A stretch of DNA of 57,044 nucleotides from Fulvimarina sp. Its GTDB lineage: Bacteria > Pseudomonadota > Alphaproteobacteria > Rhizobiales > Rhizobiaceae. Shown here piece after piece: positions 10,007-31,402 of this stretch. Under the pieces are notes generated by a model, which was not told the DNA's origin, made no database searches, and saw only the letters and a list, made by a program, of their open reading frames with translations. The stretch spans positions 1-57,044 of the forward strand of contig PACL01000010.1 in NCBI GenBank assembly GCA_002700095.1, given 5' to 3'. A program made the translations under genes and the position numbers. Positions within the stretch are counted from its first letter, which is position 1; each line of letters begins with the position of its first letter.

Positions 10007-10063
10007 GTTAGTCAAAAAACCGTCACTCTGCGCATGGTGGCCTTGCTCAGCGGGGTCTCAATC

Positions 10064-11317
10064 ATGCGCCGTTTCTCTCTGAAAAGCCTTCTTCAGGAAG
10101 CCGTCTCCGGCCATCAGGGCTGGGAGCGACAGTGGCGCGCGCCCGAGCCGAAGAAGGAATACGACGTCGTCATCGTCGGCGGCGGCGGCCATGGCCTGGC
10201 GACGGCCTACTACCTCGCCACCGTCCACGGCGTGACCAATGTCGCGGTACTCGAACGGGGCTGGATCGGCGGCGGCAATACCGGCCGCAACACGACGATC
10301 GTGCGCTCGAACTACCTCTTCGACGAATCGGCCGGCCTCTACGAACATGCGATGAAGCTCTGGGAGGGGCTGTCGCAGGAGCTGAACTACAACGTCATGT
10401 TCTCCCAGCGCGGCGTCCTCATGCTCGCGCACAACCATCACGACGTCATCTCCTTCAAGCGCCACGTCTATGCCAACCGCCTGAACGGCATCGATAACGA
10501 GTGGCTGTCGCCGGAAGAGTGCAAGGCCTACTGCCCGCCGCTGACGATCTCGCCTGATATCCGCTATCCCGTTCTCGGCGGCGCGCTGCAGCGGCGCGGC
10601 GGCACGGCGCGGCACGACGCCGTCGCCTGGGGCTATGCCCGCGGCGCCGATGCGCGCGGCGTCGACATCATCCAGAACTGCGAAGTCCTCGGCCTGAAGC
10701 GCCATCCAGATGGCTCGGTCGCCGGCGTCGAGACAAGCCGCGGCACGATCGGGGCGAAGCGCGTCGGCGTCGTCGCGGCGGGGCACACGGGCGTCGTCAT
10801 GGGCCGATTCGGGCTCCGGATGCCGGTCGAGAGCGTGCCGCTGCAGGCCCTGGTGTCGGAGCCGGTGAAGCCGGTGTTTCCCTGCGTCGTCATGTCGAAC
10901 GCCGTCCACGCCTACATCTCGCAGTCGGACAAGGGCGAGTTGGTGATCGGCGCGGGTACGGACCAGTATGTGTCCTACTCGCAGCAGGGCGGCATCCAGA
11001 TCATCAATCATACGCTCGATGCGATCTGCGAGCTCTTCCCGCAATTCGGCCGGATGCGCATGCTGCGCTCCTGGGGCGGCATCGTCGACGTGACGCCGGA
11101 CCGCTCGCCGATCATCGGCAGGACGCCGATCGACGGGCTCTTCGTCAATTGCGGCTGGGGCACCGGCGGCTTCAAGGCGACCCCCGGCTCCGGCCACGTC
11201 TTTGCCCATACGCTCGCCACCGGCGAGCCGCACAAGATCAACGCGCCCTTCAGCCTCGACCGGTTCCGCACCGGCCGGCTGATCGACGAGGCGGCGGCCG
11301 CGGCCGTCGCGCACTGA
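10064..11317 (+). CDS. soxB: Sarcosine oxidase, beta subunit
   Basis: 417 residues, normal for SoxB. Begins [24 protein letters not shown], as in SoxB proteins; the FAD dinucleotide motif [18 protein letters not shown] is near residues 35-52, followed by the [15 protein letters not shown] segment and the C-terminal [26 protein letters not shown]. SoxB holds the flavin site where sarcosine is oxidised in the cytoplasmic alpha-beta-gamma-delta enzyme. The product is glycine, with the methyl group passed to tetrahydrofolate and electrons to oxygen (H2O2). First gene of a collinear cluster. The start at 10064 was preferred over an upstream ATG at 10034 because it gives the family N-terminus. Confidence 0.96.
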
Positions 11318-11665: not shown

Positions 11666-14650
11666 ATGAGCCAGCCCTTTCGCCGTCCCGCCGGCGGCCG
11701 CATCGACCGCAGCCGCCCGCTGTCCGTGACCTTCAACGGCCAACGGCTGGAGGGCTTTGCCGGCGACACCGTCGCCTCGATGCTGATCGCCTCGGGCCGG
11801 CATCTCGCCGGCCGTTCGTTCAAGTATCACCGGCCGCGCGGCATCCTCTCCCACGGCTCCGACGAGCCGAGCGCGCTGCTCTCGGTCGACTGGCGAGCCG
11901 ATCGCGGCCCGGGCTATCGCGACCCGAACAACCGCGCATCGGTGGTGGAGGCGCGGGACGGGCTGGTCGTCAGCACCCAGAACCACTGGCCGTCGCTGGA
12001 AACCGACATCGGTGCGGTGAACGACCTGTTGTCGCCGGTCTTCGTCGCCGGCTTCTACTACAAGACCTTCATGTGGCCGCGGAAGTTCTGGGACCGGGTC
12101 TACGAGCCGGTGATCCGCAAGGCCGCCGGCCTCGGCGAGGCACCGGACGTGAAGGACGCCGACCGCTATTCCAACCGGCATGCCCATTGCGACGTGCTCG
12201 TCGTCGGCGCCGGCCCGGCCGGGCTCGCGGCGGCGCTCGCCGCCTCGGCGGATGGCGAAAGCCGAGTCATCCTCGCCGACGAAGGCTGCGAGCCCGGCGG
12301 TGCGCTCCTCAACGACGCGACCTCGACGATCGACGGCAGGCCGGCGATGGCGTGGGTGGCGGATGCCGTGGCGACGCTGGATGCGCGCGAAAACGTCGTC
12401 ATCCTGCCGCGCACGACGGCCTTCGGCTACTACAACCACAACCATGTCTGCATGGTCGAGCGGATCGCCGACCACGTCGCCGATGCGCCGGAGGGGCTTG
12501 CCCGCGAGCGGCTGTGGCAGGTGCGGGCCGGCGAAGTCGTGCTCGCCACCGGCAGCCACGAGCGGCCGCTGGTGTTCGAGAACAACGACCGGCCGGGCAT
12601 CATGCTGGCCGAGAGCGTACGGGCTTATCTCAATCGCTGGGCCGTGCTGCCCGGAAACGAGCTGGTCGTCGTCACATCCTCGGCCTCGGCCTACCGGACC
12701 GCCCTCGACGCCAAGGCGGCGGGCATGCGGGTGTCCATCGTCGACATCCGGCTCGAGGCCGATTGCGGGCCGGAACTTGCGGCGGCGAAAGACGCCGGCA
12801 TCACCGTTCGCAGCGGCCACACGGTCATCAAGGCGCTTGGCAGCAAGCGGGTGACCGGCCTTGTCGTCGCCCCGATCGGCCACGGTGGGGCGATCGGCGA
12901 AAAGGTCACCGTTCCCTGCGACTGCGTGGCGATGTCCGGCGGCTGGACCCCCTCCGTCCACCTCTTCTCGCAGTCCCGCGGCAAGCTCGCCTTCGACGTC
13001 GAACTCGACGCCTTCCTGCCCGCGACGTCCGCCCAGGCGGAGCGGTCGGCTGGCGCCTGCCGCGGCGTCTATGATCTGGCTGCCGTCATCGCTGATGGCG
13101 GGAAGGCCGGCGGCGGGGAGCTCGCACCGGAAGCAACGGCATCCTTCACCGGCTTCCAGCCCGTCCGCGTGCTGCCGACCGACGCCGACGCCTCGCGGGT
13201 GAAAGCCTTCGTCGACTTCCAGAACGACGTCACCGCCAAGGACATCAAGCTCGCGGTGCGCGAGGGCTTCGAGTCCATCGAGCACGTCAAGCGCTACACG
13301 ACGACGGGCATGGCGACCGATCAGGGCAAGACGTCGAACATGAATGCGCTGGGCCTCGTCGCCGGCATTCTCGACCGTCCCCTTCCCGCGGTCGGCACGA
13401 CGACCTTCCGGCCGCCCTATACGCCCGTCTCCTTCGGCGCGCTGATCGGGCCGGCGCGGGACGAACTGTTCGATCCCGTGCGCAAGACGCCGATCGATGG
13501 CTGGGCGGAAAAGCACGGCGCGGTGTTCGAGCCGGTCGCCCTGTGGCGGCGCGCGAAGTATTTTCCGAAGGCCGGCGAGGACATGAACGCCGCGCTCGCC
13601 CGCGAGACGAAGGCCGTGCGCACGAATGTCGGCATCTTCGACGCCTCGACGCTGGGCAAGATCGAGGTGGTCGGGCCGGACGCGGCCGAGTTCATGAACC
13701 GCATCTATACGAATGCCTGGACCAAGTTGAAGACCGGCGGCTGCCGCTACGGGCTGATGCTGCGCGAGGACGGCTTCGTTTATGACGACGGCGTCGTTGC
13801 CCGTCTGGCGGAGGACCGCTTCCACGTGACGACCACCACAGGCGGGGCGCCGCGTGTGATGCGCCACATGGAGGATTATCTCCAGACCGAGTGGCCGGAT
13901 CTCGACGTGTTCCTGACCTCGATCACCGAGCAGTGGGCGGTGATCGCCCTGCAGGGCCCGAACGCCCGCAAGGTGCTGGAGCCCTTCGTCTCGGACATCG
14001 ACCTGTCCGAAGCCGCCTTCCCGCACATGACGGTGAAGACCGGCTTCGTCTGCGGCATTCCCTGCCGCCTGTTCCGCGTCTCCTTCACCGGCGAGCTCGG
14101 CTTCGAGGTGAACGTGCCGGCCGACTATGGCGAGGCGGTCTGGAAGACGCTGTTCGAGGCGGGCCAGCAGCACGGCATCACGCCCTATGGCACCGAGGCG
14201 ATGCACGTGCTGCGCGCCGAGGTCGGCTATGTCGTGGTCGGCCAGGAGACCGACGGCACCGTCACGCCGGACGATCTCGGCCTGTCCGGCCTCGTCTCGA
14301 AGGTGAAGCCGGACTTTGTCGGCAAGCGCTCGCTCACCCGGCCTGACATGGTCATGGCCGATCGCCGGCAGCTCGTCGGGCTGCTCACCAAGGATCCGGC
14401 GGAGGTGCTCGACGAAGGCGCGCAGGTGGTCGAAGACCCAGGTCAGCCGATCCCGATGAAGATGATCGGCCACGTCACCTCCAGCTACGCGTCTTCCAAT
14501 TGCGGCCGCTCGATCGCCATGGCGATGATCGACGGCGGGCGGGCGAGGATAGGCGAGACGGTGCATGTCACGACGCCGGGCGGCTTCACCGAGGCGGTGA
14601 TCTCCAAGGCCGTCTTCTACGAGGTGAAGGGGGAAACCGCCGATGCTTGA
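11666..14650 (+). CDS. soxA: Sarcosine oxidase, alpha subunit
   Basis: 994 residues, normal for SoxA. Residues about 15-100 form the Fer2_4-like N-terminal domain without cluster cysteines. A FAD/NAD-binding region follows (VLVVGAGPAGLAAALAAS near 175; GEVVLATGSHERP near 290), and the last 380 residues are a glycine-cleavage-T-like folate domain (GELGFEVNVP near 815; GTEAMHVLRAE near 845). In the complex it binds NAD and tetrahydrofolate, which takes the methyl group as 5,10-methylene-THF. It overlaps soxG by 8 bp. A 1079-codon frame on the opposite strand is a codon-bias shadow. Confidence 0.97.
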   Translation: MSQPFRRPAGGRIDRSRPLSVTFNGQRLEGFAGDTVASMLIASGRHLAGRSFKYHRPRGILSHGSDEPSALLSVDWRADRGPGYRDPNNRASVVEARDGLVVSTQNHWPSLETDIGAVNDLLSPVFVAGFYYKTFMWPRKFWDRVYEPVIRKAAGLGEAPDVKDADRYSNRHAHCDVLVVGAGPAGLAAALAASADGESRVILADEGCEPGGALLNDATSTIDGRPAMAWVADAVATLDARENVVILPRTTAFGYYNHNHVCMVERIADHVADAPEGLARERLWQVRAGEVVLATGSHERPLVFENNDRPGIMLAESVRAYLNRWAVLPGNELVVVTSSASAYRTALDAKAAGMRVSIVDIRLEADCGPELAAAKDAGITVRSGHTVIKALGSKRVTGLVVAPIGHGGAIGEKVTVPCDCVAMSGGWTPSVHLFSQSRGKLAFDVELDAFLPATSAQAERSAGACRGVYDLAAVIADGGKAGGGELAPEATASFTGFQPVRVLPTDADASRVKAFVDFQNDVTAKDIKLAVREGFESIEHVKRYTTTGMATDQGKTSNMNALGLVAGILDRPLPAVGTTTFRPPYTPVSFGALIGPARDELFDPVRKTPIDGWAEKHGAVFEPVALWRRAKYFPKAGEDMNAALARETKAVRTNVGIFDASTLGKIEVVGPDAAEFMNRIYTNAWTKLKTGGCRYGLMLREDGFVYDDGVVARLAEDRFHVTTTTGGAPRVMRHMEDYLQTEWPDLDVFLTSITEQWAVIALQGPNARKVLEPFVSDIDLSEAAFPHMTVKTGFVCGIPCRLFRVSFTGELGFEVNVPADYGEAVWKTLFEAGQQHGITPYGTEAMHVLRAEVGYVVVGQETDGTVTPDDLGLSGLVSKVKPDFVGKRSLTRPDMVMADRRQLVGLLTKDPAEVLDEGAQVVEDPGQPIPMKMIGHVTSSYASSNCGRSIAMAMIDGGRARIGETVHVTTPGGFTEAVISKAVFYEVKGETADA

Positions 14651-15215
14651 GCTCAATCTCGCCCGCCGCGCGCCGACGGTGTCGCCGCTCGCCTCCGAGA
14701 CCGGCGTCACGGTGACGCCGCTCGGCCCGGAGGGCCGCCTCGCCTTTCGCATCAAGCCGGCGGCACTCGCCGGGCGCAGCGCCATCGACGGCTTCGACCT
14801 GTCCGGCGCGATCAACTCGCGCAGCACCGCCGGCGAAAGTGGTCAGCAGCGGGCGGCGCTCCGCCTCGGCCCGGACGAGTGGATGCTGCTCATCGCCGCC
14901 GACGAAGTCGACGAGCGCTGCGAGGCGATGTCGGCTGCACTCGCCGGCGTCCCCCATTCGCTGGTCGACGTCTCCCACCGCGACGTCTCGTTTGCGGTTG
15001 AGGGGTCGGGCGCGGACGCAGTGATCAATGCCGGCTGCCCCCTTGATCTTTCTTCGAAGGCCTTCCCGGCGGGGTCTGCCACCCGCACGGTCCTCGGCAA
15101 GGCCGAGATCGTGCTCCAGCGCCTTGCCGCCGATCGCTTCACGGTCACGACGTGGCGCTCCTTCGCGCCTTACGTCCAGGGTTTGCTGGTCGAGGCCGCG
15201 CGGGACACCGTCTGA
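14643..15215 (+). CDS. soxG: Sarcosine oxidase, gamma subunit
   Basis: 190 residues, typical SoxG. Contains LGPDEWMLLIAADE, VDVSHRDVSFAVEGSGADAVINAGCPLDL, and the C-terminal RTVLGKAEIVLQRLAADRFTV-TTWRSFAPYVQGLL region shared with GcvT-like folds. It completes the soxBDAG set. No purU, folD or glyA, which often accompany sox genes to recycle methylene-THF, is present in the cluster. Confidence 0.95.
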   Translation: MLELNLARRAPTVSPLASETGVTVTPLGPEGRLAFRIKPAALAGRSAIDGFDLSGAINSRSTAGESGQQRAALRLGPDEWMLLIAADEVDERCEAMSAALAGVPHSLVDVSHRDVSFAVEGSGADAVINAGCPLDLSSKAFPAGSATRTVLGKAEIVLQRLAADRFTVTTWRSFAPYVQGLLVEAARDTV

Positions 15216-15316: not shown

Positions 15317-16582
15317 ATGATGATGAACGACCTCGTCGCCCGCCTGACCCACCGCAAGAAGGGCTACACGCTCGAAGCGCCCTTCTATACGGACAAGGAG
15401 ATCTTCGACGCCGACATGGAGGTGATCTTCGGCCGGCACTGGATCTTCGTCGGCGTCGAGCCGGACGTGCCGGAGCCCGGCGATGTCATGGTCGTCGACA
15501 TCGGCAAGACCTCCATCGCCATCCTGCGCGACGACGACGGCGAGGTCCGCGCCTTCCACAATGTCTGCCGGCATCGCGGCGCCCGCCTCGTCCACGAGGA
15601 GAAGTCGACGGTCGGCAATCTCGTCTGCCGCTATCACTCCTGGGTCTACGACACGACCGGCCAGCTCATCCATGCCGAGCATATGGGCGAGGATTTCGAC
15701 CGTTCCTGCCACGGGCTGAAGCCGGTCCACATCCGCTCGCTCGAGGGCCTGCTCTTCGTCTGCCTCGCCGAAAACCCGCCGAAGGATTTCGACGAGTTGG
15801 AGCGGGTGATGGCACCCTATCTCGCGCCCCACAATCTGCGCGAGACCAAGGTCGCCTACAGCCATGATCTGATCGAGCCGGGCAACTGGAAGCTGACGAT
15901 GGAGAACAACCGCGAGTGCTATCACTGCGGGGCGAACCATCCCGAGCTGACCGTGCCGCTGTTCGCCTACGGCTTCGGCTTCGCGCCGGAGGAACTCGAC
16001 GAGACCGAGCGCGAGCACGCGGCTCAGTACGCGTGCATGCTCAACGACAACCACCGGGACTGGGAGGCCGCCGGCCTGCCGTCTCGCGAGGTCGACCGGC
16101 TCGACGACATGGTCACCGGCTTCCGCACCGAGCGCCTGCCGCTGTCGGGCGCCGGCGAGAGCCACACGATCGACACCAAGCGCGCCTGCAACAAGCTGAT
16201 GGGCAACCTCGACAACGCCAAGCTCGGCGGCCTGCATTTCTGGACCCAGCCGAACTCCTGGCACCATTTCATGGGCGACCACGCGGTGGTCTTCTCGGTG
16301 CTGCCGATCGACGCCGAGCACTCGCTGCTGCGCACCAAATGGCTGGTTCATAAGGACGCGGTCGAGGGCGTCGACTACGATCTCGACAATCTCATCGGCG
16401 TGTGGATGGCGACCAACCAGCAGGATTCCGACCTCGTCGGCTACTGCCAGGACGGCGCGCGGATGACGGGCTACCAGCAGGGCCCCTATTCGCCGCACAC
16501 CGAGATGCTCGTCGAGAAATTCGTCAACTGGTATGTCGGCCGGATGCTGTCGCATCTGGCTGAAACCCGCGCCGTCGCCTGA
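15317..16582 (+). CDS. gbcA: Rieske-type glycine betaine monooxygenase, oxygenase subunit
   Basis: 421 residues. The Rieske [2Fe-2S] ligands C84, H86, C104 and H107 lie in NVCRHRG and CRYHSW; the mononuclear-iron histidines H203 and H208 are in NNRECYHCGANHPEL. Together with GbcB it removes one methyl of glycine betaine as formaldehyde, giving dimethylglycine. Related families are stachydrine demethylase and choline or carnitine monooxygenases; the dgcAB and sox neighbours favour the betaine role. Three consecutive ATGs exist (15317, 15320, 15323). GbcB follows after 13 bp. Confidence 0.9.
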   Translation: MMMNDLVARLTHRKKGYTLEAPFYTDKEIFDADMEVIFGRHWIFVGVEPDVPEPGDVMVVDIGKTSIAILRDDDGEVRAFHNVCRHRGARLVHEEKSTVGNLVCRYHSWVYDTTGQLIHAEHMGEDFDRSCHGLKPVHIRSLEGLLFVCLAENPPKDFDELERVMAPYLAPHNLRETKVAYSHDLIEPGNWKLTMENNRECYHCGANHPELTVPLFAYGFGFAPEELDETEREHAAQYACMLNDNHRDWEAAGLPSREVDRLDDMVTGFRTERLPLSGAGESHTIDTKRACNKLMGNLDNAKLGGLHFWTQPNSWHHFMGDHAVVFSVLPIDAEHSLLRTKWLVHKDAVEGVDYDLDNLIGVWMATNQQDSDLVGYCQDGARMTGYQQGPYSPHTEMLVEKFVNWYVGRMLSHLAETRAVA

Positions 16583-16595
16583 AGGGGACCGCCGC

Positions 16596-17711
16596 ATGGA
16601 TGCTCCCGTCCCGAAGACCCTTGCCGTGGGCCCCGTCCCCACCGGCTACTACCGCTGGGAGCCGGAGGAGGACGACGTCCTGATCTGCCGCGCGGTGCGC
16701 GAGGAGACCCACGACGTCAAGACCTTCGTCTTCGCGCCGCGGCACCGGCGCCAGTTCGAATTTACCTCCGGCCAGTTCCTGACCTTCGAATTCGAGATCG
16801 GCGGCGAGATCATCCATCGCTGCTACACGATCTCCTCGCCGCCGACCCGGCCGGACACCGTCGCCATCACGGTGAAGCGCGTCCCGGGCGGGCCGGTCTC
16901 GAACTGGCTGCACGACGAGTTCCAGCCGGGCATGATGCTGAAGGCGACCATTCCGATGGGCGTCTTCTCCTGGTCGGGCATGCAGGCGACGAAGTATCTC
17001 TTCATCTCCGGCGGCTCGGGCATCACGCCGATGATGTCGATGACGCGGGCCTCCTACGATCTCGCGCTGATCTCTGACATCGCCTTCGTCCATGCGGCCC
17101 GCTCGCCGGCCGACATCGTCTTTCGCGACGAGCTCGACTTCATGGCAAAGCGCAACCGCTCGATCCGCCCGACCTTCATCGTCGAGGACGATGCGGCCCG
17201 CGAGACCTGGAGCGGCTATCGCGGCCGCATCGACGGGGCGAAGCTCGCCATGATCTGTCCGGATTTCCGCGACCGCACCGTCTTCGTCTGCGGCCCGGCG
17301 CCGTTCATGAAGGCTGTGAAGACTACCCTGACCGAAGCCGGCTTCGACATGAGCCGCTACCACCAGGAAAGCTTCAGCTTCGACGACTTTACCGAGGCGG
17401 CCCAGGACGAGATCACCGAGGCGACGGAGGAGATCGATTCCGGCGTCCGGGTGTTCCAGCTGGAGTTCGCCAAGACCGGACGGACCATCGAATGCCCGGA
17501 AGGGATGACGGTACTGGAGGCCGCCCGCCGCGCCGGCATGCGGCTGCCCTCGTCCTGCTCGAAGGGGCTCTGCGGGACGTGCAAGTCGAAGCTGACATCG
17601 GGCTCGGTGGAGATGAAGCATGGCGGCGGCATCCGGCAAAGGGAGATCGATGCCGGCATGGCGCTGCTTTGTTGTTCGCGGCCGAAGACGGATCTGGTGA
17701 TCGAGCGCTGA
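16596..17711 (+). CDS. gbcB: Glycine betaine monooxygenase reductase (FAD/[2Fe-2S])
   Basis: 371 residues. The order is a FAD-binding barrel (RCYTISSPPTRP near 90), NAD-binding domain (FISGGSGITPMMSM near 140; VFVCGPAPFMKAV near 235), and C-terminal plant-type ferredoxin with C321, C326 and C329 in SSCSKGLCGTC and a fourth cysteine near 359. It passes electrons from NAD(P)H to the Rieske centre of GbcA. Start at 16596 has GAAGGGGA 9 nt upstream. Confidence 0.93.
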   Translation: MDAPVPKTLAVGPVPTGYYRWEPEEDDVLICRAVREETHDVKTFVFAPRHRRQFEFTSGQFLTFEFEIGGEIIHRCYTISSPPTRPDTVAITVKRVPGGPVSNWLHDEFQPGMMLKATIPMGVFSWSGMQATKYLFISGGSGITPMMSMTRASYDLALISDIAFVHAARSPADIVFRDELDFMAKRNRSIRPTFIVEDDAARETWSGYRGRIDGAKLAMICPDFRDRTVFVCGPAPFMKAVKTTLTEAGFDMSRYHQESFSFDDFTEAAQDEITEATEEIDSGVRVFQLEFAKTGRTIECPEGMTVLEAARRAGMRLPSSCSKGLCGTCKSKLTSGSVEMKHGGGIRQREIDAGMALLCCSRPKTDLVIER

Positions 17712-17752: not shown

Positions 17753-19807
17753 ATGATCGCCAATGCCGAAGCTCTCCTGAAGCCCCTGACCATCAAGGGG
17801 CTGACGATCCGCAACCGGGTGATGTCGACGAGCCATGCGCCGTCCTATGGCAAGGACGGCAAGCCGCAGCAGCGCTATCAGCTCTATCATGAGGAGAAGG
17901 CCAAGGGCGGCATCGGGCTGACGATGTTCGGCGGCTCGTCCTCGGTGTCGATCGACAGCCCGGCAGCGCCCTGGAACCAGATCTCGGTCGCGGACGATTC
18001 GGTCGTGCCGTTTTTCCGGGAGTTCTCCGAGCGCATCCACCGGCACGGCGCCAAGCTGATGATCCAGCTGACCCATATGGGCCGGCGCACCAAGTGGGAC
18101 ACCGAGCACTGGCTGCCGGTGAAGTCGGCGTCCGCCACAAGGGAGCCGGCGTCGCGGGCGATCTCGAAGGCCCTCGAGCAGGAGGAGATCGACCGGATCG
18201 TCGCCGACTTCGCGGCGGCCGCGCGGCGGTGCAGGGAGGGCGGGCTCGACGGCTGCGAGATCTCAGCCGCCCATGGGCATCTGGTCGACCAGTTCTGGTC
18301 GCCGAACTCCAACCATCGCACCGACAAATACGGCGGCTCGCTCGAAAACCGCATGCGCTTCGGCATCGAGGTGCTGTCGGCGATGCGCGAGGCGGTGGGC
18401 GACGACTACGTCATCGGCATGCGCATGTCCGGCGACGAGATGCTGAAGGGCGGGCTCTCCCACGAAGACTGCGTCGTGATCGCTTCGGAATACGCCTCGC
18501 GCGGCCTCGTCGACTTCCTCAACGTCGTCGGCGGCCAGGCGCGCGACCACATCGCCCATGCGGTCTGCCTGCCCAACATGTCCTTTCCCGTCGCGCCGTT
18601 CCTGCCGCTGCCCTCGGCGATCAAGCGGGAGGTGGACGTGCCGATCTTCCACGCCCAGCGCGTGACCGACCTTGCCACCGGCGCCCGGGCCGTCGCCGAG
18701 GGCCATGTCGACATGATCGCCATGACGCGGGCCCACATCGCCGATCCGCATCTCGTCCGGAAACTCACCGAGGGGCGCGCCGACGACATCCGGCAATGTG
18801 TCGGCGCCGGCTACTGCATCGACCGGATCTATGTCGGCGGCGATGCGCTCTGCATCCAGAACGCCGCCACCGGGCGCGAGGCGACGATGCCCCACGTCAT
18901 CGAGCGGGCCGAGCGGCAGAAGACCGCCGTGGTCGTCGGCGGCGGCGTCGGCGGGCTGGAGGCGGCGCGGGTGCTGGCCGAGCGCGGCCACGCCGTAACG
19001 CTGTTCGAAAAGTCCGATAGGCTCGGCGGCCAGGTGAACGTCGCGTCGAAAGCGACGTGGCGCGAGGCGCTGTCGGGCATTCCCCGCTGGCTGGTCGCCC
19101 AGGTGACGAAGCTCGGGGTCGACATCCGGCTCGGTACGGAGGCCGGCGAGGCGGAGATCGCGGCGCTCTCCCCCGACATCGTCATCGTCGCCACCGGCGG
19201 TGAGCCGCAGAAGGGCGAGGCCAAGGGTTTTGCGCACGCCGTGACCACATGGGACGTGCTGGAGGGCCGCTCGCAGCCGTCTGGCACCGTGCTCCTCTAT
19301 GACGAGATCGGCGGCCACAACGCCGCCTCCACCGCCGAGGTGCTGGCCAAGATGGGCTGCCTCGTCGAGCTCGTCACCCACGACCGGATGATCGGCGAGG
19401 AGATCGGCCCGACCAACCAGCCGGTCCACCTGCGCGAACTCTACAAGCTCGGCGTCCTGATGACGCCGAATTCCGAGCTGATCGAGATCTATCCCGAAGG
19501 CAACCGGCTGATCGCCGCGATCCGCAACACCATGACCGATGCGGAGGAAGAGCGGGTGGTGGATTCGGTCGTCGTCGACTACGGCACGCTGCCGGTGGAC
19601 GGGCTGCACTTCGCCCTGAAGGACAAGGCAAAGAACCGCGGGCTGACGGACGACCATGCGATCATCGCGGGCGCGCCGCAGCCCTGCGAAATCAACGGCG
19701 CGGCATCCGAGCCGGGCTACACGCTCTACCGCATCGGCGACGCCGTCGCCGGCCGCAACATCCACGCCGCGATCTACGACGCGCTGCGCCTGTGCAAGGA
19801 CCTGTGA
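17753..19807 (+). CDS. dgcA: Dimethylglycine demethylase subunit DgcA (old-yellow-enzyme/trimethylamine-dehydrogenase type)
   Basis: 684 residues. The N-terminal 370 residues are an FMN TIM barrel of the NADH:flavin oxidoreductase family (PLTIKGLTIRNRVMSTSHAP; DGCEISAAHGHLVDQFWSPNSN). An iron-sulfur loop has cysteines at about 349, 355 and 367 (CVGAGYC, ALC). The C-terminal FAD/NAD domain starts at AVVVGGGVGGLEAARVL near 390. The family also includes trimethylamine and stachydrine-type demethylases; position between gbcAB and dgcB supports N,N-dimethylglycine as substrate, giving sarcosine and formaldehyde. AAGGAGGG precedes the ATG at 17753. Confidence 0.88.
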   Translation: MIANAEALLKPLTIKGLTIRNRVMSTSHAPSYGKDGKPQQRYQLYHEEKAKGGIGLTMFGGSSSVSIDSPAAPWNQISVADDSVVPFFREFSERIHRHGAKLMIQLTHMGRRTKWDTEHWLPVKSASATREPASRAISKALEQEEIDRIVADFAAAARRCREGGLDGCEISAAHGHLVDQFWSPNSNHRTDKYGGSLENRMRFGIEVLSAMREAVGDDYVIGMRMSGDEMLKGGLSHEDCVVIASEYASRGLVDFLNVVGGQARDHIAHAVCLPNMSFPVAPFLPLPSAIKREVDVPIFHAQRVTDLATGARAVAEGHVDMIAMTRAHIADPHLVRKLTEGRADDIRQCVGAGYCIDRIYVGGDALCIQNAATGREATMPHVIERAERQKTAVVVGGGVGGLEAARVLAERGHAVTLFEKSDRLGGQVNVASKATWREALSGIPRWLVAQVTKLGVDIRLGTEAGEAEIAALSPDIVIVATGGEPQKGEAKGFAHAVTTWDVLEGRSQPSGTVLLYDEIGGHNAASTAEVLAKMGCLVELVTHDRMIGEEIGPTNQPVHLRELYKLGVLMTPNSELIEIYPEGNRLIAAIRNTMTDAEEERVVDSVVVDYGTLPVDGLHFALKDKAKNRGLTDDHAIIAGAPQPCEINGAASEPGYTLYRIGDAVAGRNIHAAIYDALRLCKDL

Positions 19808-19908: not shown

Positions 19909-20082
19909 CCCCCCTCTGCCCTGCCGGGCATCTCCCCCACAAGGGGGGAGATCAGCTGCTTCGATGCGGCGCGCAACGTTATGCGATCGGCGCAATCCCG
20001 CCCTTTGGAGAATAGGTCGCCACTTTTGCGCGAGATCGATCTCCCTCCTTGTGGGGGAGATTCCCGGCAGGGCAGAGGGGGG
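19909..20082. repeat. 174-bp palindromic intergenic element, copy 1
   Basis: Two 45-bp arms (19909-19953 and 20038-20082) are inverted copies of each other with 43 of 45 matches; each arm also carries its own small palindrome (ATCTCCCCC-acaa-GGGGGGAGAT). The element fills the gap between dgcA and dgcB. A second element of nearly the same size and arm sequence lies at 24093-24265. Such elements resemble the short palindromic repeats scattered between genes in Hyphomicrobiales genomes. The transcript should fold into a long hairpin. Confidence 0.85.
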
Positions 20083-20114
20083 TTCGCCGCCGCGACGCAT
20101 CCGGTGGCCTTGCC

Positions 20115-22064
20115 ATGACCGCCGCAGCCTTCCTCCCCTGGCTGGTCGTCGCGATGCTCCTCGTTGCGGCCGTCCAGATCGGCCGACGCGTCCGGCTCTG
20201 GCGCGGCGGAAAACCCGCCACCGTCGACTGGTTCGCCGGGCTGAAGGCGCTGCCCAAGCGTTATCTCGTTGACGTCCACCACGTCGTCGATCGCGACAAG
20301 TCGGCCTCGCGCATGCATGTGCCGACCGCCGGCGGTCTCGTCCTCGCCTGCGGCCTTCTCGGCTTCGGTCTCGTGCCGGCGATCACCGCCTCGCGCCTCT
20401 ATTGGGCGCTCGTGGCGCTGGCCTTCCTGGTCATGGGAGCCGGCGTCGTCCTCGAAGCGCGGCGGCGCTATCCGCGGGCGCTGCCGCGGCTGTCGCTCGG
20501 CCTCTGGCAGCGGCTGCCCGTCCATCTCGGCGTCTTCGCTGCCGGCGGCTTCCTCACCGCGCTTCTCGCGGCCCTCGGCAATCCGCTGCCGGCGCTGTCG
20601 TTTGTCCTGTTCTTTCCAGCGGCGGCGGCCGGGCTCGCCCTTGCCGCCACCACGGCAAGCGGCCCGATGCGGCATGCTTTGGCGGGCGCCACGCATCTCG
20701 TCGCCCATCCGCGGCCTCCCCGCTTCGAACATCAGGCGGCGAAGGGTGACACGACCGGGCTTCGACCGCTCGACCTCGAGGCGGACAAGCTCGGCGCCGA
20801 GACGCCTGCCGATTTCGCCTGGAACCGGCTGCTGGCCTTCGACGCCTGCGTCCAGTGCGGGCGCTGCGAGGCCGCCTGCCCGGCCTTCGCCGCCGGCCAG
20901 CCGCTGAGCCCGAAGCATCTGATCGCCGATCTCGCGGCGGCGAGCGGCGGCGGCCATGCCCGGCCCTATGCCGGCAACCCCTATCCCAACGAGCGGGCGA
21001 TCGGGGGCGCTGCCGGAATGCATGCGCCGATCGTCTCGCCGGACGGGATCGTCCATCCGGACACCTTGTGGTCCTGCACCACCTGCCGGGCCTGCGTCGA
21101 GGAATGCCCGATGATGATCGAGCATGTGGATGCGATCGTCGACCTCAGGCGCTACCAGACGCTGGAACTCGGCGCCCTGCCGCTGAAGGCCGAGGAGCCG
21201 CTGGCGAACTATCGCGGCTGCGACGAGCCGAGCGGGCGGCCGCTATACGAGCGGACGGATTTCGCCGCCGGCCTGTCGCTGCCGCGCATCGTCGAAAGGG
21301 GCGAGGCGGAGGTGCTGCTCTGGCTCGGTCAGGCGGCCTACGACCTGCGCGGCCAGCGGACGCTGAAGGCGCTGATCCAGACGCTGAACGCCGCCGGCGT
21401 CGACTTCGCCGTGCTCGGCGGCCAGGAGCGCGACTGCGGTGATCTCGCCCGAAGGCTCGGCGACGAGGCGACGTTCCAACGGCTGGCGACAGCGAACATC
21501 GAAATCCTGTCGCGCTACCGCTTTTCCCGCATCCTCACCGCCGACCCCCATGCGCTGCATGTCATCCGCAACGAATATCCGGCCTTCGGCGGCAGCTACG
21601 AGGTCGTCCACCACACGGCGTTCCTCGCCGAACTGGTGGAGAGCGGCAGACTCGCTCCGGCCTCGCTCGCCGGGCGGACGATCACCTATCACGACCCCTG
21701 CTATCTCGGCCGCTACAATGGCGAGGTCGAAGCGCCGCGCGCGCTGCTCGACGCTCTCGGGCTGGAGCGCCGCGAGATGGCACGGTCCGGCAAGCGCTCG
21801 ATGTGCTGCGGCGGCGGCGGCGGCGCGCCGTCGGCCGACATTCCCGGCGACACCCGCATCCCCGACATCCGCATGGTGCAGGTGAAGGAGACCGGGGCGA
21901 AGACGGTGGCGGTCGCCTGCCCGCAATGCACGGCGATGCTGGAAGGCGTCACCGGCGAGCGGCCGGAGGTGAAGGACGTCGCCGAGCTTTTGTGGGAAGC
22001 CATTGAGGCCGGCCGCAGGAAGCCTGCCGGCGCCGCGCCGACGCGGGAGCTTCAACCCGCATGA
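20115..22064 (+). CDS. dgcB: Dimethylglycine demethylation iron-sulfur membrane protein DgcB
   Basis: 649 residues. The N-terminal part has about five hydrophobic helices (near 5-22, 75-91, 94-114, 133-152, 157-177). Two 4Fe-4S motifs follow: CVQCGRCEAACP from C245 and CTTCRACVEECP from C321. The C-terminus has HdrD-type CCG domains (YHDPCYLGRYNG near 525; MCCGGGGG at 563-570). It fits a membrane electron carrier taking electrons from DgcA, or the partner flavoprotein, towards the quinone pool. ATGA overlap with the next gene. The repeat element upstream separates it from dgcA. Confidence 0.88.
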   Translation: MTAAAFLPWLVVAMLLVAAVQIGRRVRLWRGGKPATVDWFAGLKALPKRYLVDVHHVVDRDKSASRMHVPTAGGLVLACGLLGFGLVPAITASRLYWALVALAFLVMGAGVVLEARRRYPRALPRLSLGLWQRLPVHLGVFAAGGFLTALLAALGNPLPALSFVLFFPAAAAGLALAATTASGPMRHALAGATHLVAHPRPPRFEHQAAKGDTTGLRPLDLEADKLGAETPADFAWNRLLAFDACVQCGRCEAACPAFAAGQPLSPKHLIADLAAASGGGHARPYAGNPYPNERAIGGAAGMHAPIVSPDGIVHPDTLWSCTTCRACVEECPMMIEHVDAIVDLRRYQTLELGALPLKAEEPLANYRGCDEPSGRPLYERTDFAAGLSLPRIVERGEAEVLLWLGQAAYDLRGQRTLKALIQTLNAAGVDFAVLGGQERDCGDLARRLGDEATFQRLATANIEILSRYRFSRILTADPHALHVIRNEYPAFGGSYEVVHHTAFLAELVESGRLAPASLAGRTITYHDPCYLGRYNGEVEAPRALLDALGLERREMARSGKRSMCCGGGGGAPSADIPGDTRIPDIRMVQVKETGAKTVAVACPQCTAMLEGVTGERPEVKDVAELLWEAIEAGRRKPAGAAPTRELQPA

Positions 22065-23302
22065 GCCGGCTCAGGAAAGATCCCCGCGCCGAGCGCGCGA
22101 CGAAAACGGTGGCCGAGGCGGGCCGGCGCCCGCGCCTCGATCTCGGCCGGCGCGAGGCGAGCCCGGCCTCCGGCCGGCCGCGCCGCGACCCGTGGCGGGA
22201 ATGGGCGGCGAGCCTTGCGGGCGAGACCGTCACCGGGCCCGAGCGCAAGCGCTACGACCGTTCGCAGCGACAGATGAACCGCGCGGATGCGGCCCGTTTC
22301 GCCAAGGAACGGCAGAGCCTCGACGCCACCGATATCAGCCCCGGCCAGCCGGCCCTGCGGGTTGTCGAGGCGCCGGCATTCGCGGTCTTTGCCGTTGTTG
22401 AGGCAGCGGGCGGGCGGCTGTCGCGCTTCGACCGGCAGGTGCTCGGCGCCGCAAGGCTCTTGGCCGATGCAGGGGACGGCGGCGGGGCGGTCGTTGCCAT
22501 CGTACCGGAGAGCGTCGAGGCTCTCGGCGAGGCCGGCGCCGACCGGGTTCTCGCCTTGCCGGGCGCGGCGACGCCGGCGATCCGGGCATCGATGCTCCGC
22601 AGCGCCGTCGAGGAGCATGGCCCGCGTCACGTGATCCTCGCCGAGGAAGGTGACAGCGCCGACATCGCCCGGCGTCTCGCGGCCTGTCTCGGGGAGCCGC
22701 TGTTTGCCGATGTCGAGCATCTGACCGCCCGGCAGGCGGTGCGCGCGATCCGGGGCGGCCGCGCGGAGATCGGCCTTGCGCCGCCCCGGCTGATGACCAT
22801 CGGCGAGGATCGTGCCAAGCCCCACGAGGCGGTGCCCTGCGAGGCGCGGCCGCTGGAAGATGCCGCCGCGGCACGCCTCGACGACCCGGCGATCCTGTCG
22901 GTCGAGATCATCCCCGGCGACCCGGCAAAGCTCGCTTTGAGCGAGACGGACTTCGTCGTCTCGGCCGGCAACGGCGTCAACGACTTTGCCGCCTTCCGCG
23001 ATCTCGCCGCGGTGATGAAGGCGACGCCCGGCGCGAGCCGCGTCGTCTGCGACGCCGGGCTGATGCCGCGGCAGGCGCAGGTCGGCGCGTCGGGCACGGT
23101 GCTCGCCGCCGACTGCTATCTCGCCCTCGGGATTTCGGGCGCCCCGCAGCATCTGCAGGGCATCGCCGGCTGCGAGCACGTCATCGCCGTCAACACCGAT
23201 CTCCACGCCGCGATGATCGAGCGGGCGGGTCTCGCCATCGTCCAGGATGCGCAGCTGGTCATGCCGGCCTTGCTGAAGCTGTTGCAGGAGCGCGGCGCAT
23301 GA
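22061..23302 (+). CDS. Electron transfer flavoprotein alpha-subunit family, betaine-cluster type
   Basis: 413 residues, about 100 longer than ordinary EtfA. The extra N-terminal segment is strongly Arg-rich (for example RRPRLDLGRREASP, GPERKRYDRSQRQMNRADAARFA). The C-terminal FAD domain is typical: VVSAGNGVNDF, RQAQVGASGTVLAADCYLAL, GISGAPQHLQGI. Pseudomonas has a similar etf pair next to dgcAB (PA5400/PA5401). It probably carries electrons in dimethylglycine or sarcosine oxidation. It overlaps dgcB and the beta-subunit gene by ATGA junctions, so the three are translationally coupled. Confidence 0.88.
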   Translation: MSRLRKDPRAERATKTVAEAGRRPRLDLGRREASPASGRPRRDPWREWAASLAGETVTGPERKRYDRSQRQMNRADAARFAKERQSLDATDISPGQPALRVVEAPAFAVFAVVEAAGGRLSRFDRQVLGAARLLADAGDGGGAVVAIVPESVEALGEAGADRVLALPGAATPAIRASMLRSAVEEHGPRHVILAEEGDSADIARRLAACLGEPLFADVEHLTARQAVRAIRGGRAEIGLAPPRLMTIGEDRAKPHEAVPCEARPLEDAAAARLDDPAILSVEIIPGDPAKLALSETDFVVSAGNGVNDFAAFRDLAAVMKATPGASRVVCDAGLMPRQAQVGASGTVLAADCYLALGISGAPQHLQGIAGCEHVIAVNTDLHAAMIERAGLAIVQDAQLVMPALLKLLQERGA

Positions 23303-24045
23303 AGACAATCGTGCTTCTCTCGGACGCGAGAAACCCCGTCTCCGGGCGGGCGCAGCTGTCGCGGCTGGAAGCCCAGGCGATCGGCCTTGCGGCCGATCTC
23401 GACGAGACCCCACAGGGCCTTCATGTCGGGCCGGGCGAAGAGGGCGTCGCGGCTGGACTTGGCCACGGACTCCGCGGCCTCGACGTCGTCGAGGCGCCGG
23501 AGGGCGAGGACCCGCTGCCGGCGCTTGCCGCCTTCCTGAAAGATGCCCTCTCAGGCGATGCGCCGCCCGCGCTGGTCCTGTGCGGCCGGCGCGGCGAAGG
23601 CGGGCTGGAAACCGGCCTCGTGCCCTATCTGCTGGCCGAAGCGCTGGGCCTGCCGATCCTCGCCGATGCGGTGGCGATGCGGCCGGGCGAGGCGCCGGGC
23701 ACGCTGGTCGTCGACCAGGCGATGGCGAAAGGTGCCCGGCGCAGGATCACCGCCCGCCTGCCGGCCATCGTCACGGTGCATCCGCTCAGCTCTCCGCCGC
23801 AGCCCTTCGCCTTCGGCCGGATGCGGCGGGGCGATATCCGCCGCCATGCGGCCGCCGTCTGCGAGGTGCCGGTCGATGTCGGTGCGGGGGAGCGCCCGCA
23901 CCGGGCCCGGCCGAAGCTGATGCGCACGGCCGGCACCGCCAGCGGCGGGGCAAACCTCCATGTCGGCCCGGAGCCCGAGGAGGCCGCGCGGCTGATCCTG
24001 GCCTATCTGGAGGAGAATGGCATCCGGGGGTATGGGCGGGGGTAG
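23299..24045 (+). CDS. Electron transfer flavoprotein beta-subunit family, betaine-cluster type
   Basis: 248 residues. EtfB-like segments are LVLCGRRGEGGLETGLVPYLLAEALGLPILADA (read as two parts) and RRITARLPAIVTVHP, corresponding to the conserved ETF-beta signature area. It pairs with the preceding alpha-like gene (4-bp overlap). Last gene of the plus-strand betaine cluster; a palindromic repeat follows 47 bp downstream. Confidence 0.85.
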   Translation: MKTIVLLSDARNPVSGRAQLSRLEAQAIGLAADLDETPQGLHVGPGEEGVAAGLGHGLRGLDVVEAPEGEDPLPALAAFLKDALSGDAPPALVLCGRRGEGGLETGLVPYLLAEALGLPILADAVAMRPGEAPGTLVVDQAMAKGARRRITARLPAIVTVHPLSSPPQPFAFGRMRRGDIRRHAAAVCEVPVDVGAGERPHRARPKLMRTAGTASGGANLHVGPEPEEAARLILAYLEENGIRGYGRG

Positions 24046-24353: not shown

Positions 24354-25643
24354 TCAGACCCCGTGCGTCGCCAGCATCCCCTGCGCCTCCGGCGCGGACG
24401 CGCGCGGCTGGCGGGACTTGGCGGCGGCGACCTCGGCGGCGATCATTTCGGCGGTGATCGCAGAGAGCGTCCAGCCGAGGTGGCCGTGGCCGGTGTTGTA
24501 GAAGACGCCGGCCCGGCGGCCCTGCCCAACCTTCGGCATCATGTTCGGCATCATCGGGCGCAGGCCGGCCCAGGGGATGACCGAGGAGGTGGAGACACCG
24601 GGGAATCGCGTCCGGCACCACTCGGTGAGCGGGCGGATGCGGGCGTCCTTGATGTCGCGGTTCTCGCCGGAGAACTCCGCGGTGCCGGCGATGCGCAGGC
24701 GGTCGGCGCCGAGCCGCGAGGTGACGATCTTGGCGTGATCGTCGAGGAGGCTGACCATCGGCGCGCCGGCGCGGCTCTCCGCGTCGGTGAGGTTGACGGT
24801 GATCGAATAGCCCTTGACCGGATAGACGTTCACCCGGTCGCCGAGCTGGGCCGCAAATCTGCGGCTGGCGACGCCGGCGCAGACCACCACCGCGTCGAAA
24901 TGCTGGCGGGTCGCCTCCGTGGCGGCGCCGGCCTTGCGCCAGAAGACGTCGACGCCCTTCTCGCCATCGGACTGGAGCCGCGTGACATCGGCGGAGAAGG
25001 CCAGCCGGGCACCGTGGCGCCGGCAGGCCTCGGCGAGGTTGCTGGTGTATTTGTGGATGTCGCCGGTGAAGTCGGACTCGGTGAAGAAGCCGCCGACGAA
25101 ATTGCCGCGGATGGTCGGCTCGATCGCGGCGATGTCCTCCGGCCCGACGGCGGTGCGCTTCAGCCCGCCCTTTTCGAGCAGCTTATTGACCTTGGCGGCA
25201 TGGGCGAATTCGCCTTTTTCCTCGTAGACGTGGAGGATCCCGCGCTTCTCGGCGTCGAAGGAGAAGCCCTCGCGCTCGGCCATGTCGAGGAGATGGGCCC
25301 GGGCAGCAATGGCAAGCTTCGTCGTCGCGATGGTGTTCTGTTCGTAGTTGCGCGCCGCCAGCACGAATTCGGCCATCCAGGAGAGCTTGTGCCAGGAGGG
25401 CTTGGGATTGACCAGGAGCGGCGCGTCCTTGGTCAGCATCCACTTGATGCCCTTCAGGAACGTCGACGGCTGGTTCCAGACCTCGGCGTTGGAGGCCGAG
25501 AGCTGGCCGCCATTCGCGAAGGATGTCTCCATCGCGGCATAGGGCTGACGGTCGAAGACGGTGACGTCGAAGCCGCGCTGGATCAGCTTGTAGGCGGTGG
25601 TGATACCGGTGATGCCGGCGCCGATGACGGCGATGGAGGTCAT
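24354..25643 (-). CDS. DadA-like FAD-dependent amino-acid dehydrogenase (D-amino acid / glycine)
   Basis: 429 residues. N-terminus MTSIAVIGAGITGITTAYKL carries the GxGxxG FAD site (residues 8-13); FDRQPYAAMETSFANGGQLS follows, and the C-terminus has PWAGLRPMMPNMMPKVG and GHGHLGWTLSAITAEMIA, all typical of the D-amino acid dehydrogenase small-subunit family (DadA). These enzymes deaminate D-amino acids, and relatives act on glycine or sarcosine. A glycine riboswitch lies in the leader, so glycine is the likely physiological signal and possibly a substrate. The frame stays open upstream through the riboswitch, but the ATG at 25643 has AAGAAAGG 6 nt upstream and gives the family start. Confidence 0.88.
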   Translation of the reverse strand: MTSIAVIGAGITGITTAYKLIQRGFDVTVFDRQPYAAMETSFANGGQLSASNAEVWNQPSTFLKGIKWMLTKDAPLLVNPKPSWHKLSWMAEFVLAARNYEQNTIATTKLAIAARAHLLDMAEREGFSFDAEKRGILHVYEEKGEFAHAAKVNKLLEKGGLKRTAVGPEDIAAIEPTIRGNFVGGFFTESDFTGDIHKYTSNLAEACRRHGARLAFSADVTRLQSDGEKGVDVFWRKAGAATEATRQHFDAVVVCAGVASRRFAAQLGDRVNVYPVKGYSITVNLTDAESRAGAPMVSLLDDHAKIVTSRLGADRLRIAGTAEFSGENRDIKDARIRPLTEWCRTRFPGVSTSSVIPWAGLRPMMPNMMPKVGQGRRAGVFYNTGHGHLGWTLSAITAEMIAAEVAAAKSRQPRASAPEAQGMLATHGV

Positions 25644-25683
25644 GACGAGCCTTTCTTCCGCGTTGGCGCGGAGATCCGTGCTT

Positions 25684-25873
25684 GCCCCTCCCGTCATGAG
25701 CCTGAGAGCTTCACCGCGCGCGGACGAACTCCGGCGCGGCTTTCTCCTTCGGCGGACGACCCGATCATGGGCCGCCACTCTTCGGACTTTTTTGAACGAA
25801 ACGGTCCCTGTTGCCTGAGAGTTTCCGGGGCGGTTGCTCCTTCGGCGCCGGCCTCGAAGGCCGATCTCTCCCG
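25684..25873 (-). promoter_or_regulatory. Tandem glycine riboswitch in the leader of the dadA-like gene
   Basis: On the minus strand two aptamer-like modules follow each other. The first has GGGAGAGA, then GCCGAAGGAGCAA, then AACTCTCAGGCAACAGGGAC. The second has CGCCGAAGGAGAAAGC and AAGCTCTCAGGCTCATGACGG. The GCCGAAGGAG and CTCTCAGGC strings are the conserved core of the glycine class. A short linker with a T-rich/A-rich stretch (near 25790-25800) separates them. Downstream a 6-bp stem TCCGCG-CCAA-CGCGGA sits just before the ribosome site and no T-tract follows it, so control may be on translation. The second aptamer ends about 40 nt from the start codon. Confidence 0.9.
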
Positions 25874-26168
25874 TATTCGTCGATACGGTCAGACTAGCGC
25901 CCGAAACCTTTCCCGACAATGACGACGGCCCATCGAATGCGCGCATGGCTGCCATGCGCAAACGCCTCGGCGGCGTTTCGAAGAGGACGTCGACCTTCGG
26001 CGGGGCCGCCGAAGGCAAGGGACGCAGCGGATGGCAAGCGTCAGTCCATCTCCCCGGCGTAATGCTCGGCGGTGAGGCGATGTGTCGATCAAGCCGACAT
26101 GCCTTACCGCAAGCATCGTTGCGTCTTCGCAAGGACACCCCCTTCGAGGACGGGAAGAAGAAGAGATC

Positions 26169-29591: not shown

Positions 29592-31106
29592 TCATTCCCC
29601 CCGCGGAAACCTCGCATTCTCCTCGACGACGTTGAGGTCCATGTGGTTGCGCATGTAGCGCTCCGAGGCCTTTTTGAGGGGCTGGTAGTCCCAGGGATAA
29701 TAGTTGCCGTTCCTCAGCGCCTCGTAGACGATCCAGCGCCGCGCCTGGCTCTCGCGGACCTCGGCGTCGAAGCGGGCCATGTCCCATTGCGCCCGCATCT
29801 TGTCCTCGAAGGCCCGCAGCGTTTCGGCATGGGCGGGATCGCCGGCAAGGTTCGTCAGCTCCTGAGGGTCGGCGTCGAGGTCGAAGAGCTGCGGCGGGTC
29901 GATCTCGCAGTGGTTGAACTTCCACCGCCCCTCGCGGATCGACACCATCGGCGCCTGCGACCCCTCGGCGGCATATTCCATGAAGACCGGTTCGGGACGC
30001 TTGTCGCCGGTCACCGTCGGGACCAGCGAATGGCCGTCGGTCCAGGGCATGATGCCGCCCATGTCGATGCCGGCGAGGTCGCAGAGGGTCGGGGTCAGGT
30101 CGATGGTCGAGACCGGCTCCTCGACGCGCTTGGCGGCGAGGCCGGGCGCGGCGATCATCAGCGGCACCCGGGCCGAGCCCTCGTAGAAGCTCATCTTGAA
30201 CCACATGCCGCGCTCGCCGAGCATGTCGCCATGGTCGGAGACGAAGACGACGATGGTGTTCTCGTCCATGCGGGTGCGGGCGAGGACGTCGAGGAGCGAG
30301 CCGATCTTCTCGTCGATGTAGGAGAGATTGGCGAAATAGCCGCGCCGCGCCCGGCGGACGCTCTCGGCGGTGATCTCGGATTTCGACGCGTCGTTGGCGG
30401 CGTAGAGGCGCTGCGAATGGGCGTCCTGTTCGGCGAGTGGGATCGGCGCGACCTCGGGGTCGAGATGGGCGCAGTCTTCGTAGAGATCCCAGAATTTCTT
30501 GCGCGCGACGTAAGGGTCGTGGGGGTGGGTGAAGGAGACGGTCAGCGCCCATGGCCGATCGTCGTGGCCGCGCGACAGGTCGTAGAGCTTCTGCTCGGCG
30601 AAGAAGGCGACCTCGTCGTCATATTCCATCTGGTTGGTGATCTCGGCGACGCCGGCGCCGGTGACCGATCCGAGATTGTGATACCACCAGTCGATGCGCT
30701 CGCCGGGCTTGCGGTAATCCGGCGTCCAGCCGAAATCGGCGGGATAGACGTCCGTCGTCAGCCGCTCCTCGAAGCCGTGCAGCTGGTCCGGCCCGACGAA
30801 ATGCATCTTGCCCGACAGGCAGGTGTGATAGCCGGCGCGGCGCAGGTGATGGGCATAGGTCGGGATCGCCGACTGGAACTCCGCCGCATTGTCATACACC
30901 CTGGTACGGGACGGCAGCTGGCCGGACATGAAGGAGGCCCGCGCCGGCGCGCAGAGCGGGCTTGCCGTGTAGCTGTTCGCGAACCGCGTCGAGCGCGCCG
31001 CCAGCGCCTTCAGATGCGGCATGTGGAGGAAATCGGCCGGCCCGTCGGGAAACAGCGTTCCATTGGCCTGGTCGACCATGATGATGAGGAAGTTCGGGCG
31101 GCTCAT
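29592..31106 (-). CDS. betC: Choline sulfatase
   Basis: 504 residues, normal for BetC. Metal-binding NFLIIMVDQ (D12), the formylglycine motif C52-A-P-A-R in SPLCAPARASFMSG, GKMHFVGPDQLHGFEERLTTD, and VFVSDHGDMLGERGMW are all characteristic. It hydrolyses choline-O-sulfate to choline and sulfate in the cytoplasm, supplying the choline that becomes glycine betaine. The usual betICA partners are not adjacent. The ATG at 31106 gives MSRPNFLIIMVD; the longer frame to 31316 is low-complexity and rejected. Confidence 0.93.
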   Translation of the reverse strand: MSRPNFLIIMVDQANGTLFPDGPADFLHMPHLKALAARSTRFANSYTASPLCAPARASFMSGQLPSRTRVYDNAAEFQSAIPTYAHHLRRAGYHTCLSGKMHFVGPDQLHGFEERLTTDVYPADFGWTPDYRKPGERIDWWYHNLGSVTGAGVAEITNQMEYDDEVAFFAEQKLYDLSRGHDDRPWALTVSFTHPHDPYVARKKFWDLYEDCAHLDPEVAPIPLAEQDAHSQRLYAANDASKSEITAESVRRARRGYFANLSYIDEKIGSLLDVLARTRMDENTIVVFVSDHGDMLGERGMWFKMSFYEGSARVPLMIAAPGLAAKRVEEPVSTIDLTPTLCDLAGIDMGGIMPWTDGHSLVPTVTGDKRPEPVFMEYAAEGSQAPMVSIREGRWKFNHCEIDPPQLFDLDADPQELTNLAGDPAHAETLRAFEDKMRAQWDMARFDAEVRESQARRWIVYEALRNGNYYPWDYQPLKKASERYMRNHMDLNVVEENARFPRGE

Positions 31107-31402
31107 GAGGGCGGTCTTTCCGGCAAGGCGTTGGAGAGGCATCTCGTGACGGCCCCTGCGGCATAACGCGCCGCCCCCCGGGCCCGCAATGGGAGGGCCG
31201 GCGGCCGCGCAGCGAAATCTCCGCCGGCAGGCATGTCCGACCCGGCCGGCGGGCGGGCGGGCCCCGCCTCCCCCGACCTGGCCCTGGCCCTGGCCCTCGC
31301 CCTCGCTGTCCGTCATCTGCGGGAGCGATCGCCCGTATCGCGGATTCGCATTGGATTTCAGCGGCGCCAGAGGCTACAGCGCCGTCGAAAGGAAGCGGAG
31401 AC
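31107..31402. other. 296-bp divergent intergenic region with a short tandem repeat
   Basis: Lies between betC and the MATE gene and must hold both promoters. A CTGGCC-type hexamer is repeated around 31276-31306 (CTGGCC-CTGGCC-CTGGCC-CTCGCC). No clear operator palindrome or gene was seen. Confidence 0.5.

Follow-up and report, generated by a model that had tools for sequence, protein, structure and literature searches.

The question raised by this locus is why a gene for a DadA-like oxidoreductase should stand behind a glycine riboswitch. The gene lies on the minus strand of a 57 044-nt contig of Fulvimarina sp. (PACL01000010.1; 'the window' hereafter refers to this whole stretch), at 24354..25643 with its ATG at 25643, and encodes a FAD oxidoreductase of 429 amino acids that scored 691.9 bits against PRK12409 (NF009074, cut-off 494) and 234 bits against Pfam family DAO. 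An initial annotation had proposed that the gene, designated here dadA, acts as a glycine overflow valve for a neighbouring pathway degrading betaine. Based on comparison with relatives, we consider it probable that dadA encodes such a valve, a flavin-dependent glycine dehydrogenase governed by what is predicted to be a glycine ON-switch.

The riboswitch itself was confirmed as a tandem of two RF00504 aptamers on the minus strand, both above the gathering score of 32. Aptamer 1 (25792..25883) scored 63.4 bits (E 7.5e-11 when the whole window was scanned against Rfam); aptamer 2 (25681..25795) was weaker at 46.0 bits, with four non-standard pairs in P1. The window-wide scan reported aptamer 1 alone, presumably owing to the 4-nt overlap between them. 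The leader begins at 25883, 10 nt beyond the interval first marked for gene and leader (24354..25873), and its second aptamer ends 37 nt from the ATG. This 37-nt stretch (25644..25680), read from the sequence as a putative expression platform, contains a hairpin, CCGCG-CCAA-CGCGG (25671-25658), followed by the Shine-Dalgarno (SD)-like element GAAAGG (25655-25650). Neither a terminator-like nor a sigma-70-like, promoter-like site was recognised on the leader strand, suggesting that control would be translational. A hairpin of varying sequence adjoining an SD-like site was also observed across window positions 25644-25697 and the leaders of 36 relatives, and may represent the expression platform. 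Two further structural candidates were set aside. A minimum free energy fold of the whole leader was not aptamer-like and was no better than shuffled sequences (z -1.08). RNAalifold analysis of the leader tails that run from aptamer 2 up to the start codon (37 leaders, 35 distinct) suggested that a conserved purine run behind aptamer 2, GACGG.AGGGGC, could pair with codons 2-4; codon conservation can explain this run, and the pairing stays an idea.

The association of riboswitch and dadA extended well beyond the window. All 10 genomes of the window's genus carried exactly one RF00504 tandem, immediately 5' of dadA, and no further RF00504 locus was found in the source genome (5.62 Mb in 100 contigs, 93% complete) among the 150 of 917 first-look candidates that were scored; stricter filters were applied in the RF00504 scans of relatives and of genomes with named orthologues. 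The best 80 of 392 relatives, referred to here as named loci, came from alpha-, beta- and gammaproteobacteria, and at 77 of them both aptamer motifs were present within 400 nt upstream, the same rule matching 12 of 1777 random 400-nt windows from these loci. Many leaders of the Rhodobacterales type had a single motif pair. RF00504 also lay directly upstream of 11/11 plasmid-borne orthologues scanned, out of 65 plasmid records in which a relative occurred. In a class-wide sample of 389 alphaproteobacterial genomes (the source genome included; the others at least 95% complete), where after a loose first look four candidates were scored per genome, nine PRK12409 members exceeded the cut-off and eight had RF00504 upstream; the exception (G232) had a borderline score and an internal stop, and two matches below the cut-off (L196 and L197) were also without RF00504. 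The motif pair was found at none of eight canonical DadA loci, all above the PRK00711 cut-off. Judged by these comparisons of sequence, the pairing is old and specific.

As to the enzyme, the window protein shares Pfam family DAO and about 32% identity with Escherichia coli DadA, but belongs to a different curated family: against PRK00711 (NF001933) it reached 336.6 bits, below the cut-off of 383, compared with 755.2 for E. coli DadA. It also differs in having a riboswitch and no dadX partner; a search with E. coli DadX at 1e-6, which detected the racemase beside E. coli dadA, identified no alanine racemase in the flanks of 91 loci. Its closest solved folds were glycine oxidases, with further matches to L-proline dehydrogenase and dimethylglycine enzymes. 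The family is large, with 7,907 proteins at E <= 1e-120 among 7,999 candidates scored using an orthologue from Cupriavidus as query, and the database names of these relatives offered nothing beyond D-amino acid dehydrogenase.

Genes next to dadA in relatives also point to glycine as its predicted substrate. Neighbouring genes were called by a codon-position score, which led to 6/80 loci being dropped (L144, L149, L160, L161, L167 and L177); calling by longest open reading frame was abandoned, having missed dadA at 27/80 loci in GC-rich genomes. At 16 of the 80 loci, all with riboswitch motifs, dadA lay beside genes for a MarR-like regulator and an M20 amidohydrolase (partial in two), and benA, benB and catB were present in 11 of the 16. 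A predicted hippurate catabolic locus, L168 (3062-17794), comprises the MarR-like regulator, a TRAP transporter, the M20 amidohydrolase and riboswitch-dadA, with 15 similar loci among L148-L184. Among 120 listed homologues of the amidohydrolase, 14 carried the name hippurate hydrolase, and where the rest had names these were amidohydrolase or M20 peptidase. In six loci complete bhcB, bhcC and bhcD genes, homologous to those of the beta-hydroxyaspartate cycle (bhcABCD), followed directly 3' of dadA, which overlapped bhcB by 4 nt in four of them. The L168 products exceeded the equivalog cut-offs (BhcB 572.5 bits, cut-off 550; BhcC 734, cut-off 690; BhcD 577.8, cut-off 500), as did those of benA and benB, while assignments at the other loci were by homology. 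At L158 the contig ends after the first part of bhcB, and at L155 only 40% of bhcB was present despite 10 kb of downstream sequence. Unlike the known cycle, the operon is headed by dadA, and the bhcA model matched none of the eight proteins scanned around dadA in L168. The simplest reading would be that hippurate is cleaved to benzoate and glycine, and that the glycine is then handled by DadA and BhcBCD.

A second kind of partner was malate synthase, found after dadA at 2/91 loci. In Aminobacter sp. SR38, malate synthase G (1172.5 bits, cut-off 989) began 34 nt after dadA, the two genes lying behind one riboswitch on pSR1, and on Sinorhizobium meliloti pSymA (L208) a piece of malate synthase G sequence, spanning 20% of the length at 66% identity, was located about 1.77 kb after the dadA start. 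In Aminobacter and Shinella the surroundings of dadA also included HbpS-like (PF03928) genes, and in Caballeronia its neighbour was a gene of the Rid family, whose product may be an imine deaminase (L209 8685-9116, L213 5280-5711 and L214 5267-5620). The chemistry shared by the betaine setting of the window and these hippurate/bhc and malate synthase settings is, on the predicted functions of the neighbours, glycine in and glyoxylate out.

The initial annotation had also pointed out that dadA takes the place of the usual gcvTHP genes behind the riboswitch, and this agreed with gene content. Neither gcvH nor gcvP was found in the source genome or the nine other genomes of the genus, although the same searches matched 27 of 31 other relatives; both genes were missing from the identical 14 of the 41 relatives, the 10 of the genus among them. 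No RF00504 was detected in the four gcv-less genomes outside the genus. A further 25 relatives outside the genus had RF00504, and comparison of positions showed that in each of them one copy precedes gcvH, both on one contig. One of these relatives' genomes, G019, had two RF00504 loci, one at gcv and one at dadA. In another genome (G034) a second glycine riboswitch (L218, G034:C6, 722505-722676) preceded a gene for L-serine ammonia-lyase (TIGR00720, 617 bits, cut-off 345). Malate synthase G, a sink for glyoxylate, exceeded the cut-off in all 10 genomes of the genus, in which dadA probably compensates for the missing gcv genes. Among genomes with named orthologues gcvH was missing in 37/49, mainly in Jiella, Aureimonas and close relatives and thus representing few independent losses, with scattered further lineages including Rhizobium sp. 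L1K21 and Acidisoma silvae; this count overlaps the survey of 41 relatives, G001-G009 and G041-G049 apparently being the same nine genomes. The gene was kept in 12/49, four Aurantimonas species among them.

Whether betaine explains the arrangement was examined in the genes convergent with dadA, all on the plus strand. The soxB (10034..11317; TIGR01373, 728.6 bits, cut-off 529) and soxA (11666..14650; TIGR01372, 1421 bits, cut-off 1164) genes, encoding the beta and alpha subunits of sarcosine oxidase, exceeded curated cut-offs. The following names are tentative because scores fell below the cut-offs: soxG-like (14643..15215; TIGR01375, 120 bits, cut-off 144), gbcA-like and gbcB-like for the oxygenase and reductase of glycine betaine monooxygenase (15317..16582, NF058607, 439.8 bits, cut-off 670; 16533..17711, NF058606, 361 bits, cut-off 500), and electron transfer flavoprotein (ETF) alpha-like (22061..23302; NF051845, 242.8 bits, cut-off 600) and beta-like, etfB-like (23299..24045; NF051844, 120.6 bits, cut-off 350), the last being the immediate neighbour of dadA. 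Between them lie an old yellow enzyme-type flavoprotein gene (17753..19807; TIGR03997, 531 bits, below the cut-off of 793), which we take to be dgcA-like, and one for an Fe-S oxidoreductase (20049..22064; weakly matching several Fe-S families, all below cut-off), presumably dgcB-like. Elsewhere in the window, on the minus strand, are genes for choline-sulfatase (29592-31316; 895.5 bits, cut-off 433) and betaine-aldehyde dehydrogenase (52828-54333; 787.6 bits, cut-off 593), which together with the betaine cluster make up a nearly complete route from choline-sulfate to glycine.

The convergent arrangement is therefore as first described, and recurs within 10 kb in six of nine named loci of the Jiella group besides the window; L108 and L114 lacked the betaine cluster and at L111 the contig ends. 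At the 71 named loci outside this group, no betaine genes were found within 10 kb except one partial match of 29%. The proposal of a glycine-controlled glycine dehydrogenase was supported by comparison, whereas the betaine neighbourhood, confined to the Jiella group (6/80 loci, plus the window), is too narrow to be its general cause. Nor is ETF singled out by context as the electron acceptor, since its genes belong to the betaine cluster of Jiella and do not accompany dadA consistently.

Taken together, the proposed sequence of events is as follows. When betaine, hippurate or another source raises the glycine level, glycine would bind the aptamers, and the leader would free the ribosome-binding site and turn translation on. 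The flavoprotein would then oxidise glycine to an imine yielding glyoxylate and ammonia, with electrons possibly passing to the quinone pool, a guess from DadA enzymes. The glyoxylate would be taken up by malate synthase or by Bhc enzymes, and in the window's genus, where the DadA-like enzyme probably replaces glycine cleavage, malate synthase G is the likely sink. We infer substrate, product, ON direction, mode of control and acceptor alike. More broadly, and with less assurance than for the window, we favour the view that PRK12409 proteins are glycine dehydrogenases, widespread and wrongly named, which catalyse the riboswitch-controlled first step of a second bacterial route for glycine. On this view glycine would be converted to glyoxylate and then to malate or, where BhcBCD takes part, two glycines would become aspartate; the route would replace glycine cleavage in entire genera and serve pathways that release glycine, those for betaine and hippurate among them.

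Other explanations were considered. PRK12409 might be a broad D-amino acid dehydrogenase with a protective role, the riboswitch raising oxidation of D-alanine or D-serine when glycine disturbs peptidoglycan and D-amino acid pools. The database names, all D-amino acid dehydrogenase, the common Pfam family and damage to cell walls by glycine, a theme among the reference titles of PMC6944388, would fit; yet the curated family is distinct from that of E. coli DadA, the flanks contain no alanine racemase, and the operon partners use glyoxylate rather than pyruvate, making this explanation unlikely. The separate family, the conserved riboswitch, the missing gcvH and gcvP in the genus and the operons with glyoxylate consumers similarly suggest that the initial annotation was right in not regarding dadA as a housekeeping D-alanine gene. 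Less likely still is a substrate such as sarcosine, another N-substituted glycine or a D-proline-like imino acid, with glycine sensed as the end product of the pathway. Folds matching sarcosine oxidase, L-proline dehydrogenase and dimethylglycine enzymes, and the sarcosine oxidase genes adjoining dadA in Jiella, speak for it, but the window already contains soxB and soxA, dadA has no betaine genes beside it outside the Jiella group, and the bhcBCD and hippurate contexts indicate free glycine. We regard it as very improbable that the riboswitch turns expression off or is a relic, with dadA not induced by glycine. The direction of switching is a reading of the leader, whose second aptamer has a weak P1 and whose strand carries no recognised promoter-like or terminator-like site; a relic would, however, be expected to decay, yet the same position has been kept in three proteobacterial classes, even where gcv has its own copy, as in G019.

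Several observations nevertheless weigh against glycine as the substrate of the family or against the generality of the route. Activity of PRK12409 enzymes on glycine is predicted from genomic context. The window protein missed the ThiO glycine oxidase equivalog (TIGR02352, 132.1 of 250.8 bits), and its fold also resembles those of sarcosine oxidase and proline dehydrogenase, within about 2 Z units. The distantly related E. coli DadA is nearly inactive on glycine, with a KM > 500 mM (PMC9436414). The motifs were missing within 400 nt at 3/80 named loci. They were absent at the Fulvimarina pelagi locus L146, where a second PRK12409-like gene in the genome (677.5 bits; L217 1329-2582, G078:C4:1680200-1683400), the only riboswitch-led one of the two copies, stands 39 nt behind its riboswitch; a weak RF00504 match (32.8 bits) lay about 460 nt upstream at L167, beyond the 400-nt scan; in the L153 genome RF00504 adjoined gcvH and not dadA; and L015 (G021), 63% identical, was without a riboswitch. 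The putative hippurate specificity of the amidohydrolase derives from the names of homologues: its curated model reads amidohydrolase only, and the nearest solved structures are yxeP and a homologue of IAA-amino acid hydrolase. BhcC exceeded its cut-off of 690 bits in 0/10 genomes of the window's genus, three scoring 583-590 and the source genome 27.3. Finally, in the class-wide sample, counting genomes not listed with a gcvH match as lacking it, gcvH was absent in 4/9 PRK12409 members and 103/380 other genomes (p 0.27); a general link with gcv loss was rejected on this ground, and PRK12409 does not require such loss.

Among known systems, a close parallel is the glycine riboswitch of gcvT/gcvTHP in Proteobacteria and Bacillota, which has the same RNA family, tandem aptamers and a predicted glycine-induced disposal of glycine. 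Here the target is instead a single flavin dehydrogenase gene, in a genus without gcvH and gcvP. Published work describes gcv genes and the malate synthase gene of SAR11 as targets of glycine riboswitches (PMC12452182, PMC2211319, PMC5069720). The SAR11 switch on glcB (PMC2211319, PMC5069720) likewise controls glyoxylate metabolism but sits on the glyoxylate consumer, whereas ours sits on the predicted producer. A DadA-type enzyme of Cupriavidus necator, DadA6, is called a glycine oxidase, with glycine as substrate (PMC11879842, PMC12421819). Two other Cupriavidus species have an orthologue in PRK12409 with RF00504 upstream; the dadA6 check primers matched neither of these loci, which is uninformative either way as to a place of DadA6 in the family. 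No paper joining a glycine riboswitch to a dadA-type gene was found in a literature search that excludes most subscription papers and supplements. What the locus adds is probably a new kind of target for an established riboswitch class, in a protein family that is probably misnamed.

If this is correct, a substrate would be assigned to a large family now labelled D-amino acid dehydrogenase, and a well-studied riboswitch class would gain a target not listed in the papers searched. Genera without glycine cleavage would have a route for glycine that does not involve decarboxylation, and a producer would be named for glyoxylate, which in SAR11 is consumed by a malate synthase reported to be under glycine riboswitch control.
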